Positions 41,725 through 49,094 of a stretch of 64,000 nt of DNA are shown here, one piece after another. Position 1 is the stretch's first letter. Each line of letters starts with the position of its first letter. The notes under the pieces are model-generated. The model was not told where the DNA came from and did not search any database. It worked only from the letters and a program-made list of their open reading frames with translations. Both the position numbers and the translations under genes were made by a program. Source of the DNA: Pyrrhoderma lamaoense (Eukaryota; Basidiomycota; Agaricomycetes; Hymenochaetales; Hymenochaetaceae); assembly GCA_002794735.1 (NCBI GenBank), contig NBAZ01000001.1, forward strand, positions 2,232,001-2,296,000. The letters are read 5' to 3'.

Positions 41725-41915
41725 TCCATAATATTGATGTATCATGCATATTGGTATTCAAGCATAGATGATGATTTGTTTATTGCTTTTCATTGTGATC
41801 ACATATTGCATGCCATTTTCTTCATGTTTATGTTTTCTTTTTTCTTTTTTCTTTCATGTTGTGGCTAGGTAGTGCTAATCTTCTCTCCCTGATTGCTCTT
41901 TTCTGTCATCTTTAT

Positions 41916-41979
<64 letters not shown>

Positions 41980-43127
41980 ATTAAACTTAACATCCCTGGC
42001 AAGTATGCCATACAAATGCCAGATCTGGTTTAGTTTTTCGCCGGTCAAATATGTATTTTTTTTTCATTCCATTTTCCAATGTCTGTCTCCTTTTCCCTTT
42101 CCCATCCCTTTCCATCTTGATTTTCTCTCATGAACATGATTCAGTTCTACGCGTCTTGCTTCTTTGCCTGAACGAGATTGTTTTGGCTCTGGAAGAACTG
42201 TGGCTCCCAGTCAGCTTCTCCGTTCTATCTCCCTATCTTTTCCGTCTGCATGTTTCATCCATAAGATCCATATAACTAACTTTTCACTTCCTTACTTCCT
42301 TTTCATTGGTCTATACTTTTACGCGTATGATCTCAGAACACCAACCTCGCATCTCTTTCATTGACTATTACGTGTTTCCATATATCAATTTGCTCTTGCT
42401 CGTCGATAACGCAACTCATTCACTCTCACTCTCTATATCTCTCTCTTCCCAACCCCAACCCCAACCGCTTCCCTCCTCTCATTCACCCTCCCTCTTCCCT
42501 TGCCTTTTCGAATCCAGTATTATTCACACCTGTGTAGTTTTGTAGTAACTGTTCTGCTTTTAAACCAAGATGATGAAGACTTATATATAGGTCATCCTTA
42601 TACACTTACTGTAACTTAGTTTAACGCCCTAGAGCACGTCTCATGACGTATTTAAATGGTTAAACGTGCGTGATGTAAAGAATTCATGAGTGAGACAGGA
42701 GAAGAAGTCATTTCAAAAACTGAATAGAGACGGAGAGAAGGGGAGCGAATCAGATGTTATATAAAAGAGGGAAAAAGAGGACTGTGTTACCTAAGCAGCG
42801 GAATGGCGTCGGAGCACGAGACGAAGAGGAAATAATTTAATTTGAGACCTTTTTTTTTCGTTTTCCCTTTCTTTTCTTTTCCTTTCCCTTTCTCTTGACT
42901 CTGTCTACCAGAGCCAGCACCGACCTGTGTCTCTCCTTCGATGGACAGCTGTTAACGCTCGTTCAACTCTTTCTCATCTAGTTCTTACTTCTTTCTCCCC
43001 TCCCTTCTACTCTCTCTCCTCGCATAGAATCACCGTCTGTTTCCCTCTCTGTGTATTCACTGTAAAGCTTTTTCTTGCCAACCAGCAAACTGTTCATATC
43101 CGGTCGTAGTTTCCCCTCAAAACAGCC
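41725..43127. other. Pyrimidine-rich intergenic region DCP2 - PRPP synthetase
   Basis: About 1.4 kb of C/T-rich + strand sequence: the DCP2 3' UTR and then the promoter and leader of the PRPP synthetase gene. It contains a long CT microsatellite and a short CCAACC-type repeat (42450-42470). I see no further gene. Confidence 0.5.
41923..41975 (+). repeat. (CT)n microsatellite
   Basis: About 26 uninterrupted CT units in the 3' flank of DCP2. It is the longest simple repeat in the window and is likely to vary in length between strains. Confidence 0.95.
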
Positions 43128-44701
43128 ATGCTTGCTTCTGGAGGTCTGAAACTTTTTTCGGGTATGAGCATCTTTTCAAAACTCTTTCTCATATGGCGAG
43201 CTATATGCTAACAATCTTTTACTAGGGACGAGCCATCCTGAGCTCGCAGAGATTATTGCTCGTCGGTATGTGTAACTTGCCACCTTGCTCCACAGGTCCA
43301 CAGGTTTAAATGACTAACATGTACACGCTCATAACCTCATGACCCTATACACGATAATCACAATATGATCATTACATTATTTCCTCTCTCCCATCATAAT
43401 GTTCAATCATTACGCCTCTCCCTCTCATCTTTCAAAATACGTTTCCCCCCCCCCCCTTCAGTCTTGGCATCCCCGTTTCGAAAGCGGAAGTGACGTGCAA
43501 CGGAATTGGCGAGACGTCAGTGAGGATCGCAGAGTCTGTACGCGAAGATGATGTCTACATCGTGAACACTGGTTGTGGAGAAATCAATCGTTCTCTGATG
43601 GAGATGTGTATTATGATCCATGCGTGCAAGATTGCAAGCGCGAAAAGAATCACGGCTGTGTTGCCGTTGTTTCCGTATGCGAGACAGGACAAGAAGGATA
43701 AGAGCCGAGCGCCCATTACTGCCAAGTTGGTAGCTAACATGCTACAGAAGAGTGGTTGTGATCATGTTATTGTGAGTTTTCATTCTCTCTTGTGATGTTC
43801 TTGTAGATGAGGTCGGGGAGGAGCACGCGAGGGCACGGTGTATGCGCAGTCCGAGATAAGATATTGATTTGCTATCGATTATTTTTTTAGACGATGGACT
43901 TGCATGCGTCGCAAATCCAAGGATTTTTTGATGTACCCGTTGATAAGTGAGTTATTACAAGTACGGTACTCATCGAGACGTCTTCTGATATCGCTTTCTT
44001 CCTTCTGTTTTCATTTTACCAACATAAAGCGTAAGTGGTACTTGAAAAGAAGTCTCCCTTTTAGCTCAATATGGGTGCACGTGCGTGGCTGACTTCTTCC
44101 TTGGGACAGTTATATGCGGAACCGTCAGCGATACAGTACATCAAAAATCACTTTAGTTTGGATGATATCGTTATTGTGAGTCCAGATGCGGGTGGGGCGA
44201 AGCGGTACGTAGAGCCAGATTGAGTTGCGATCGGGTAAACGGAGAATTAATATTGATAACTACGAGGACAGAGCAACGTCGATCGCGGATCGGTTAGGAG
44301 TTGACTTTGCACTGTTCCACAAGGAAAGAAAAAAGGCAAACGAAGTGTCGCGGATGGTGTTGGTTGGAAACGCAAAGGACAAGACGGCGATACTTGTGGA
44401 TGATATGGCGGATACGTGCGGGACGCTTATTCTTGCTGCTGAGCAATTGACGGAAGCTGGAGCGAAGAAGGTGTATGCGATTGTTACGCACGGGATTCTT
44501 AGTGGGAAAGCACTCGAGCGACTGGAGACGTCTACGTTAGAGAAGGTGATTGTGACGAACACTATACCGCAGAGTGAGAATCAAGAGAAGTGTAAGAAGA
44601 TTGAGGTGATTGATGTTGGGATAGTGCTGGGCGAGGTCATCCGACGGTCACACTATGGGGAGAGTGTGAGCCGACTGTTCTATGAGGCAGTGACATGGTA
44701 A
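43128..44701 (+). CDS. PRS: Ribose-phosphate pyrophosphokinase (PRPP synthetase)
   Basis: Makes PRPP from ribose 5-phosphate and ATP for nucleotide, His and Trp synthesis. Exons 43128-43161, 43226-43265, 43462-43771, 43891-43946, 44030 (1 nt), 44110-44204 and 44272-44701 sum to exactly 322 codons (321 aa; family about 318-320). Motifs: [36 protein letters not shown], the flexible-loop and metal site [42 protein letters not shown] and the PRPP-binding loop [12 protein letters not shown]. The conserved PVDNLYAEP segment is obtained only with the 1-nt exon, or with one added base. Confidence 0.97.
44030..44030 (+). other. Candidate single-nucleotide exon in PRPP synthetase
   Basis: A single C between a complete acceptor (pyrimidine tract, TTACCAAC branch site, ATAAAG) and a perfect donor (GTAAGT). 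The upstream intron 43947-44029 (83 nt) starts GTGAGT. The downstream intron 44031-44109 (79 nt) has a CTGAC branch site and ends GGGACAG. The C completes the Asn codon (AA+C) of PVDNLYAEP and restores the frame. The alternative is one 163-nt intron plus a missing base. Confidence 0.7.
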
Positions 44702-45578
44702 TAATAATTCATTAATGAATATAATAATATGAATCTGTTCTTGTTGTTCCAACTATGATGTTAGAACTACAGTGCATGAGAAGACCTTGACGAGGACTAG
44801 CACCAAGTCCAGAACGGAAGTAACTTACATAATCCAGATGCGGGCCGTGACAGATCAAGGCTAAATTAGACTCGCCTTTCCTGTTTCCATCTTTTTGTAC
44901 TTTTTTTTTTCATTTTTCATTTTACTTTTTTATTTTATTTTTTCCACACAGTCTAACATTTCCTTATCTGTACATGTCCCTCCACTACTACGACTACTAG
45001 TCTCTCCTTACCCTTTATCCCTCTTTCCTCGTCTTCTTTCTTCTGCTTGTCATCATCATCTCTCGCCGTTCGACAACCCTCTCGACTTTTCTCCTCGCCA
45101 TCGTCCCAGACGACGACAAGCAAGTCCCCTATCGCTCCCCGAGCAAACATCCAACTCCGCTAGCGGCTTTTGCTCCAGATCAGCGCGCGTTTCTAGATCT
45201 CCTCTGTGGGCCCCCGGGGACCGTGACATTAAGTAACAGCCACAAGCCGAATCGACTCTTCTGTCTCGCCTCTCACATCTCTCTTCTCTTCCTCATCGTC
45301 GTCCTCGACGCTACTCCTCTTGACTCTTGACTCTCATCGTCCGCTCCTCTTCTTCACCAGTCTGTCAGTCGATTTCTCTTTCTCTCTCTTCACCCAAATA
45401 TCTCTCCCAAGCACCCCTTGACTTCCTGATACTTCCCTCTTTCTTCAGTATATTCATCCCTTAATCTTTTTATCAGTTCCATTTTCCATGTCATATTAGC
45501 TCCTTTTTGCCTCGGTTTCGCACTTTCTCTCGCTCGTCTTCTTCCCACTCCTAGGGCGATGCTGCTCACCCCAGTATC
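44702..45578. promoter_or_regulatory. Pyrimidine-rich upstream region of the kinase gene
   Basis: From about 44880 to 45560 the + strand is strongly C/T-rich, as in many basidiomycete promoters and leaders. No TATA box or gene is visible. Confidence 0.45.
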
Positions 45579-48500
45579 ATGTATACATCCCAAACCCATG
45601 TCCAGCACGCGCATCATCCACCAATCCCAAATAATCACCCGCACCATCATGGACACAACTCCCAGTACCAGCAACATTCTTCCTCAAATCACAGACCATC
45701 CGCAGCTGCGGCGGCACCAAAGGAGCCTACCGTTGTCAATGCAATTCCCTCAATCGTCGTCAGTGGCAATAAACTCATACACGGCGACGCTCAGTCCAGT
45801 AAGTACCCCCTCCCAATATTTTTTTCCATTATACCGGCAAATATTCCCTACCTCCTTCCAATATGCGCATCTTGCGTAGCCGACTGACTACCCGATGTTT
45901 CTTCCTTCTTTCTTTTTCATATTATGTTTTATTTCTTCCCTGTGTATTCATTCGCTTCCCCCCCTAAATAATCCAATTAGGTTCCCAGCGCTCTTATACT
46001 CCAATCAAAGTCGTCGGTGATGGTTCGTTCGGCACCGTTTGGCTCGTTGACTGGCACTCACAATTGCCTCCGAATACACCCTTGTCTCCCATGCAATGTG
46101 GAGCGGGAGCTCGTCCCGATTGGCATGGAAAGAGGCTCGTCGCTCTGAAGAGAATGAAAAAGCGTTGGGAAGGTGGGTGGGATGAATGCAGAAAATTAAA
46201 AGAATTAGAGGTGCGCCATCTGTCAACTTTAGACACGTATTTGTTTCGAAATATTGCTTATTTCTTTACACTGACATCTTATTCAAATTTCCACTAATGA
46301 CTAGTCCTTACGTGCCATTCCATTTCATCCTAATATTATCCCATTATACGATTTCTTTCTGTTACCCGCTTCGAAGGAGTTATATTTCGTGTTCGAATCT
46401 ATGGAGGGAAATCTTTATCAACTAATAAAGTCGAGGAAGGGGAGACCACTTGCCGGGGGATTAGTCTCATGTATTTTTCGTCAGGTGGTGTCAGGCCTGC
46501 ATCACATACATGCGAATGGCTACTTTCACCGTGACATGAAACCGGAGAATTTACTAGTTACGACTACAGGTCTTTTTGACTATCGGAACGTTTCGCCGGT
46601 TGCCCCACCACATGCACCTGCTGAAAGAGACGTTGTCGTTATCGTAAAACTAGCCGATTTCGGTCTTGCTCGTGAAACGAAGAGTAAGCCTCCTTATACG
46701 GAGTATGTCTCTACGCGATGGTACCGTGCGCCCGAGGTGTTGTTACGAAGTAGAGACTATTCAAATCCTGTAGATCTTTGGGCGTTGGGAACTATCATGG
46801 CGGAACTGATCAATTTGAAGCCGCTGTTCCCCGGAGGGACAGAGGTTGACCAAGTGGCTCGAATATGTGAGATATTGGGTGATCCGTCTGATGAGTATGG
46901 TGTAGATGTCCGGGGTGCTTATAATGGAGGTGGAAAGTGGATTCGTGGAATAAAAATGGCTCGTGCCGTGGGCTATCAGTTTCCAAAGGTGTGTTATTTT
47001 GTTCTACCTCCATGACAGTTCCGATATCTGTATACTGAAAACTTTTCCTTCTCCCTCCCCACCTCTCGTTCCTCAGCTACGCCCCGTCACCTTTCACACT
47101 CTTTTTGATCGCAATATTCCATACAGCCTGATTGAATGTATAGCTGACTTATTAAAGTATGATCCTGACATACGGTTAACGAGTCGACAATGTTTGGAAC
47201 ACCGGTATATTCTGGAAACAATCCCAGGAAATATCCCACCTGGTCCACAAGTTCCATCACAAATTGACACTACCTATCTTACAGCCGTTAAGCCCACTCC
47301 AAGCATGACTTCCCTGTCTCCTCGGCCTATGCCGTCTTCTCACTCAAACGCCCCTGCTCATGTCAAACCCGCCTTTAATGGAAATTCTCACGCTCATAGG
47401 AAGCCGTTTTTCCCTGCAGACCAAAATGGTACTGTGCCGCGTCAAATGGCTGCTTCGCCAGATCCACTTGATTCGCTACAGTTACAAAATGATGGGAGTC
47501 TCTCCTCACATTATTCCGCCGTTTCGAGCTCTGTGCATACGGGCGCAAACCACATCACAGAGATCTATACGAATGGCACCACACATGTTCAGAATGGAGA
47601 TTCAGAGGCTATGGAGGTCTCACCTTCGTCACCTTCAAGTAGTAATCCTCACCAACAGAATCACTCTTCGGATCCCCAACCTATGGATATTTCTTCGCCA
47701 TCAGCAACGGAGCCGAATAAGCGACTTCCACCTTCGGATCAGCAATTTTCACCTCCGGTTATTCAATCTTCACCCAGCGGTTCGAGGCTCAAATTGTTTA
47801 GTAAGAAGCCTAGTATGTGGGGGAGAGCTATGTTTGGAAATGGGGACAAGGTTCAACATAATACACTTCCACCTGTAGATGAGTTGAATGTTGCGTCTTC
47901 CTCATCTACACCCTCGTTGAATCAATCGTCAACTGCGGAGAGTAAATCGCTATCAGAGTTGTCACCAAACGGTGCTGAACCAATCGTAATCGAGCCACCA
48001 CCAGTAGACGCAAAGTCAAGAAAGAAGGAGGCTGAACGTGTTGCATTAGAAGCCGAGAAGGCAAGGCGTGCGTTGGCTGAGAAACGTAGCCGAGATCAGG
48101 CCCGGGCTGTTATGCAGAAGCGGAGTCAAATGATCAAGCAGAAGAACGGTGAATTCGAGTGGGAAGCTGCAAGTCCTGCACATTTTGCAACGTTGCATAA
48201 ATCAAAGCCTAAACAACGCTCAGGGATGCCTCAAGCATCTTCATCGTCTGCGACGATCAATGCTGCTGGCGGCCGGTTTAGAGGTTCAAATGAAGGAGCA
48301 AATGGTTCTGAGTATGATAATTATCGAGAAGCTGAACATCGAACCAAAGCTCGGAGGAGAGATATGGATGATGATCACTCGATGTCTTCCTCAGATCTTC
48401 AAAGTGTTGGGAGACTATCTGTTATGTCGTTTGCGACTGTTGAGAGTGACCCTCTTTCTCAGAGATTACGACATAGACCCAGTCTCTTTGGTATCCATCG

Positions 48501-49094
48501 TATGCAGTCGAGTTCGTCACTAAGAACTTCGTTTGGCGATGATTATTCTCTCTCAGCACGTTCCTCTAATTCTCCTTCTTACGAACAGCAATTAGCAAGC
48601 GACTTCGATTCTAGAGCGTCCATGTCTTCTTACGAAGCGGCACGCTCATCAATGTCCGAAGCGAGCTCACCTTTACCGATGCATTCGCTGTCTTTATCAA
48701 GTCCTCAGCAGCAGCAACAGATTCTTGGTCGACAACAGTATTTTACGTTACCGGTACCGGTTTCCGCTGTGCAGCAGCATCCACCATTCAGAGCACCTAC
48801 ACCGAGTAGTCCGTATGAGTATGGTCAGTATGGGCAGATCCAGCCCCAACCGCCTAGTCCGGCAATTGCCCCTCATTCCGCTATCAATCCAATATTCAAA
48901 GTTGTAAGTGATTCTTAGTGGATGAGTTATATATGTAGAGTATATGAAAGCTTATTCTTTTCTGAAATAAATTTTCTATAAAGCCTCCATTGCCTACTCA
49001 GCCGGATTCTGGACATAGTCCTTTACCGCCGTTCTCGCAACTGGAATCAATAGCTGAACCTTTAGCTCCAATAGGACAGACTGACGAATCCTGA
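45579..49094 (+). CDS. Ime2/Crk1-type protein kinase (RCK/MAK family)
   Basis: Ser/Thr kinase of the Ime2 (meiosis) / Ustilago Crk1 / mammalian MAK-ICK group. Exons 45579-45798, 45981-46210, 46305-46988, 47077-48903 and 48984-49094 give 1023 residues. After a His/Pro/Gln-rich N-terminus come the glycine loop VVGDGSFGTVW, the catalytic Lys in LVALKRMKK, HRDMKPENLL, DFGLA, and the activation segment TEYVSTRWYRAPEVL with the T-x-Y dual phosphorylation site typical of RCK kinases. DLWALGTIMAEL follows. The catalytic domain has an insertion between the glycine loop and the Lys and another before DFG. The tail of about 550 residues is Ser/Pro-rich with a charged helix (SRKKEAERVALEAEKARRAL). Confidence 0.93.

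Follow-up and report, generated by a model that had tools for sequence, protein, structure and literature searches.

A predicted one-nucleotide exon at the Asn-147 codon of a basidiomycete PRPP synthetase gene

The PRPP synthetase (PRS) gene at 43128-44701, on the plus strand of the window (the whole 64,000-nt stretch of DNA analysed here), very probably contains an exon of a single nucleotide. The predicted exon is C44030. Flanked by two U2-type introns, one of 83 nt and the other of 79 nt, it would complete codon Asn-147 as its third base, AA-C (Table 1). One coding base lies here between an acceptor AG and a donor GT and is needed to hold the reading frame, as in a single-nucleotide exon. 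Support for this reading comes from homologues, in which Asn was found in 121 of 122 transcript-like sequences and a fault resembling a one-base error was found in tens of separately annotated genomes.

Table 1. Parts of the PRS gene, in positions of the window
Feature	Position	Strand	Basis and remarks
Exon 1, start codon at 43128	43128-43161	+	Translation aligns to relatives
Exon 2	43226-43265	+	Preceded by intron 43162-43225
Exon 3	43462-43771	+	Preceded by intron 43266-43461 (196 nt)
Exon 4, ending in PVD + AA	43891-43946	+	Preceded by intron 43772-43890
Intron 4, 83 nt	43947-44029	+	Donor GTGAGT, weak acceptor ATAAAG; candidate branch site CTGAT (A 43988)
Single-base exon (predicted): C, completing the Asn-147 codon as its third base	44030-44030	+	Sole scheme of 506 in-frame schemes to restore VPVDNLYAEP; homologue fingerprint
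Intron 5, 79 nt	44031-44109	+	Donor GTAAGT, acceptor GGACAG; candidate branch site CTGAC (A 44092)
Exon following C44030, first residues LYAEP	44110-44204	+	Homology and scheme enumeration
Last coding exon, stop codon 44699-44701	44272-44701	+	Preceded by intron 44205-44271

Spliced through C44030, the gene encodes 321 residues plus a stop, and three PRPP synthetase Pfam domains (Pribosyltran_N, Pribosyl_synth and Pribosyltran) were detected at full length and above cut-off. Among the best 120 homologues, Schizopora, Phellopilus, Sanghuangporus and Rickenella are some of the best named relatives (84-87% identity), pointing to a Hymenochaetales-like basidiomycete. Alignment to human PRPS1 scored 442 bits and was ungapped at the junction, placing Asn-147 opposite PRPS1 Asn-144. 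The accessible text of one report includes PRPS1 N144S among relapse-specific leukaemia mutations (PMC7403961), a listing consistent with the importance of this residue. The same genome assembly (30.65 Mb in 72 contigs) carries a diverged second PRPP synthetase gene on the minus strand of another contig (G000:C7:152932-153918). This paralogue lacks an intron at the Asn codon, where the reverse strand, read by eye, gives GAT AAC TTG. Elsewhere in the PRS gene, intron 2 is about three times the median intron length and has a C run towards the 3' end, and the reading frame continues across it with no added base. Downstream, a plus-strand protein kinase gene was placed at 45575-49094, with outer limits set by a rough gene finder only; a Pkinase domain (PF00069, E 3.4e-40) was recognized in its exon at 46305-46988. 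At about 41890-41990 lies a long simple repeat, rich in TC, which open frames read as serine-leucine runs.

Exon 4 ends in GTTGATAA, followed by GTGAGT (43946/43947), and the next large exon starts with TTATATGCG at 44110, where the junction reads GGGACAG/TTATAT (44109/44110). Joining GATAA to TTATAT leaves the transcript lacking one base needed for the conserved PVDNLYAEP; with C44030 omitted and all 163 nt removed, the frame shifts and a stop follows after 169 residues. A sequence-only reading had claimed this off-by-one join, which we confirmed, and had placed the letters around 43946, 44030 and 44110 correctly, including the lone C within ATAAAG/C/GTAAGT. We then enumerated every scheme that kept the frame, allowing donors of GT or GC, acceptors of AG, introns no shorter than 40 nt and a middle exon of no more than 60 nt. 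VPVDNLYAEP was restored by none of the 17 single-intron schemes and by one of the 489 with two introns, namely introns 4 and 5 around C44030. The earlier proposal that 83 nt + C + 79 nt yields PVDNLYAEP and a frame of 322 codons thus describes the only such scheme among 506. By splice-site score this scheme ranked third of the 489, and the top two destroy conserved residues; it is the conserved peptide, not the splice sites, that singles it out.

Site quality was judged with a small gene finder trained on 264 kb around the window, and percentiles refer to its 237 predicted introns with flanking exons of at least 60 nt (median length 61 nt), a set that probably still contains some false long introns. 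Each flanking intron has a usable donor, branch candidate, acceptor and length. The GTGAGT and GTAAGT donors of introns 4 and 5 fell at the 60th and 68th percentiles, and the lengths of 83, 79 and 163 nt at the 83rd, 80th and 92nd. The sequence-only reading had named the GTAAGT donor that follows the C, and also a CTGAC branch site in the second half, where the candidate lies 17 nt from its own AG (median for CTRAC, 18). It went too far in calling the inner acceptor full, as ATAAAG/C has A at -3 and is weak (5th percentile). The outer acceptor GGACAG/T is modest (14th percentile), and both are stronger than the acceptor at 44271 (0.8th percentile), which homology demands. In intron 4, the A of CTGAT is 41 nt from the AG and is followed by a tract of 76% pyrimidine, with no AG between CTGAT and 44028-44029; it is a better branch candidate than TTACCAAC, which sits very near the AG. 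When both strands of the 264 kb were scanned, an AG-C/T-GT arrangement at least 45 nt from both ends, with donor and acceptor scores as good, occurred in 31 of 75,382 segments each 163 nt long (4.1e-4). The self-trained gene finder itself missed the one-nucleotide scheme, choosing the acceptor at 44156 and dropping 16 residues, and fused PRS with the next gene. Introns 4 and 5 share only matches of 9 nt and 7 nt and so show no trace of having arisen by recent duplication.

To compare the junction across homologues, we took the best 120 of 7429 and split them by source label. Rows with a jgi and/or lgn label only were termed transcript-like; these are mostly contigs of 1-2 kb with an uninterrupted frame, which we infer to be transcripts, and the lgn label we take to denote assemblies of read archives. 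Among these best 120, 39 of the 45 ncbi-labelled rows were abnormal at the junction and 6 read PVDNLYAEP or PVDNLFAEP. The abnormal rows comprised 23 with VDK directly before LYAEP or LFAEP, one VDKCYAEP, four VDKW, five without VDN, two VDNVSD and four in which other residues were inserted or replaced. Of the six plain-Asn rows, two (P0012 and P0023) also carry the lgn label; the six may reflect correct annotation or intron loss, which look alike in these data. The Laccaria bicolor model, too, has VDN here. Transcript-like rows among the same 120 had Asn in 74 of 75 cases and Ser in one (P0050), and the split between annotated and transcript-like rows gave a Fisher p of 1.4e-25 (5.3e-24 with Ser counted as abnormal).

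Two further searches extended the comparison. A probe carrying Lys-147, and therefore Lys-biased by design, added 54 proteins: Lys stood in all 18 added Agaricomycete genome models and Asn in all 32 transcript-like sequences, as well as in a fluke, a fish (uniref only) and two Wallemia models. A search from Wallemia added 41 more, in which all three Agaricomycete models were abnormal, all 15 transcript-like sequences and a Culex protein had Asn, and the 22 Tremellomycete rows (3 with an nr label only) divided into 13 abnormal and 9 Asn. Across the 215 proteins listed, annotated rows numbered 73 abnormal and 20 Asn and the 122 transcript-like rows 121 Asn and one Ser, although each of the three lists holds a best 120 and the counts are not database-wide rates. 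The Agaricomycete annotated rows alone stood at 60 abnormal versus 6 Asn among those listed, and VDN was missing from none of the 122 transcript-like sequences (121 PVDN, one PVDS). At the DNA level, the junction FFDVPVDAA/GTRNG had no match in the genome_contigs and viral_contigs scans, and a related-locus search returned no fungal locus, its hits being 15 from bacteria (42-46% identity) and 2 on viral contigs (43%).

Closely matched pairs localize the disagreement to this codon. K147N is the single difference, over 320 residues, between the Pleurotus ostreatus model and a transcript-like sequence, and it is the sole difference in a Postia pair too; from their near-identity, each pair appears to come from one species. 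In Cryptococcus neoformans, P0184 differs from the transcript-like P0177 only in having KHCC for N; two C. deneoformans models are identical apart from 10 residues inserted at the Asn codon; and C. gattii P0191 differs from C. deuterogattii P0179 only in VDN. The Cryptococcus and Kwoniella models (P0178-P0211) also disagree among themselves at the Asn codon, with VDN absent, KHCC, or inserts of 10-13 residues, and splicing there may be unusual as well. The abnormal rows P0184 and P0191 are also lgn-labelled, and given this label a real non-Asn isoform may exist in Cryptococcus. Some Tremellomycete inserts (C. deneoformans JEC21, Kwoniella shandongensis) cannot be simply decoded as a one-base exon; the anomalies in this class are less clear than those across Agaricomycetes, and we claim no one-nucleotide exon for it.

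Some forms of the abnormal models can be reproduced from the window. If a cDNA reading GATAAC/TTATAT is forced onto GATAA/GT...CAG/TTATAT, the C has to be aligned with either the donor G or the acceptor G and the codon becomes AAG, so that a one-base deficit squeezed into one intron produces the Lys-for-Asn seen in the models. In our enumeration Lys arose in the window from one intron with either GT-CA or TG-AG ends, and loss of VDN arose from a donor at 43939, the GT of the Val codon. The VDKW, VDKY and VDKC models would fit a donor 4 nt downstream, and the VDNVSD models would fit read-through of the lone base into a GTAAGT-like donor; retention of intron 5 in the window begins N-V-S. The oddities of Leucocoprinus and Macrolepiota have no simple decoding from a one-base deficit.

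Assembly error is an unlikely cause of the deficit. Its specific form, in which a sequencing or assembly slip lost a base beside the acceptor and the true gene has one intron of 163 or 164 nt (AA/.../C-TTA), we consider very improbable. A single missing base would mend the frame equally well, and long introns do exist here (196 and 119 nt within PRS, and 8% of the 237 predicted introns at 163 nt or longer). Against this, the same codon is troubled in most ncbi-labelled homologues from other species among the best 120 (39 of 45), the flanking exons are otherwise conserved and in frame, and the well-placed AG-C-GTAAGT would have to be a chance event (4e-4). Even less probable is a single intron with non-canonical GT-CA or TG-AG ends and a genuine Lys-147. 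Many public models do carry it, with VDK before LYAEP or LFAEP in 23 of the 45 ncbi-labelled models among the best 120 and in all 18 from the Lys-probe search, yet VDK is present in 0 of 122 transcript-like sequences (121 Asn, 1 Ser), pairs resembling a single species differ by K147N alone, and both human PRPS1 and the fungus's own paralogue have Asn. A cDNA sequence of GATAACTTATAT would be incompatible with Lys-147.

Use of the donor GTTGAT at 43939 with the acceptor ending at 44109 would give an in-frame protein of 318 residues that works without V-D-N, and 5 of the 45 ncbi-labelled models among the best 120 lack VDN. This donor is at the 0.8th percentile, however, and none of the 122 transcript-like sequences lacks VDN; we give the arrangement as slight a chance as Lys-147, and a cDNA holding GTTGATAAC would be incompatible with it. 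The least probable alternative is a stwintron, a nested pair whose internal intron interrupts one of the splice sites of the external one, leaving no exonic base between them. Such pairs have been described in fungi, and the adjacency of introns 4 and 5 brings them to mind. Introns 4 and 5, however, each possess a full set of sites, and if the entire 163 nt is removed the frame is lost and translation stops after 169 residues. The one-nucleotide exon would in turn be at odds with GATGTACCC/TTATAT as the main spliced join.

If C44030 is an exon, its acceptor (ATAAAG/C) and donor (C/GTAAGT) overlap, and two spliceosomes could not use both together. The introns would therefore have to be removed stepwise, each recognized across the intron (intron definition). 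Either order would be chemically workable; we lean towards the downstream intron leaving first, since its three signals (donor, branch site CTGAC, acceptor) are collectively the stronger ones, after which the upstream intron would face a normal exon starting CTTATAT. When the C is skipped, when intron 4, intron 5 or both are retained, or when the acceptor at 44064 is used, a stop is met no more than 22 codons from the junction. These five mis-spliced forms would yield no enzyme and would likely be fed to nonsense-mediated decay. The 17 frame-keeping single-intron schemes escape an early stop, and each harms conserved residues.

One-nucleotide exons are a known kind, and the sequence-only view that they are almost unknown, with one Arabidopsis case, overstated their rarity. 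Judging by the accessible text of the reports cited here, the exon of Arabidopsis APC11 was proven by fusion constructs (PMC4674806), 1-nt microexons of APC11 and VPS55 are conserved across land plants and have RNA-seq and RT-PCR support (PMC8831610), a one-nucleotide exon in Fusarium CYP621A is described by its authors as the first fungal case (PMC12940212), and a placozoan mitochondrial case has been reported (PMC5436844). The PRS arrangement resembles APC11 in having one frame-essential coding base between two U2 introns, missed by annotation; APC11 differs as a plant gene with an intervening stretch of 422 nt (PMC4674806), and the basidiomycete PRS case is a prediction. For APC11, Guo and Liu argued for stepwise, intron-defined removal, and they cite potato invertase, where the second intron is removed first (PMC4674806). 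PRS shares with the VPS55 and APC11 microexons a strong GTRAGT donor after the lone base and absence from reference annotation, whereas those exons are in plants and in genes unrelated to PRS (PMC8831610). The Fusarium exon is a G forming the middle base of a Gly codon in an ascomycete P450, seen in SRA reads (PMC12940212), in contrast to the C at the third base of an Asn codon in a basidiomycete core enzyme, with a signature across many orders. Stwintrons and recursive ratchet-point splicing, as far as the available descriptions go, share the juxtaposed acceptor and donor and stepwise removal; they keep no coding base, unlike the PRS mRNA, which would keep one. In two Cryptococcus genome papers, in the text available, 'microexon' occurs once each and denotes a mapping option. 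We found no report of a one-nucleotide exon in PRPP synthetase in the literature on single-nucleotide exons, fungal or basidiomycete microexons and PRPP synthetase introns and exons, in a coverage that mostly excludes subscription journals. As far as searched, the basidiomycete case, the core gene, the breadth of the signature and the widespread misannotation are new.

The spread of the signature suggests that the arrangement goes back to the ancestor of Agaricomycetes or earlier, and it is probably ancient and widely missed. Loss of the base, or of a single intron, would disrupt the frame of an essential gene, which may be why the arrangement has persisted. We raise more tentatively the combined proposal that the exon has been kept since before Agaricomycetes, perhaps before the Agaricomycotina radiation, and acts as a splicing checkpoint setting PRPP supply, and we doubt that both parts hold. 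The checkpoint idea arises because the protein would be cut short if the C were skipped or either intron were retained, and it is weakened because 17 single-intron schemes keep the frame, so that not every mis-splice stops early.

If the prediction is true, the smallest possible exon would be deeply conserved in an essential gene of culturable fungi, and both the recognition of a one-base exon and the order of intron removal would become testable. Dozens of public basidiomycete PRPP synthetase records would then carry a false Lys-147, deletion or insert, and disagreement between genome model and transcript at one codon beside an intron would offer a rule for finding more such exons. If kept since before the Agaricomycetes or Agaricomycotina radiation, the PRS exon would be among the oldest known one-nucleotide exons in fungi.
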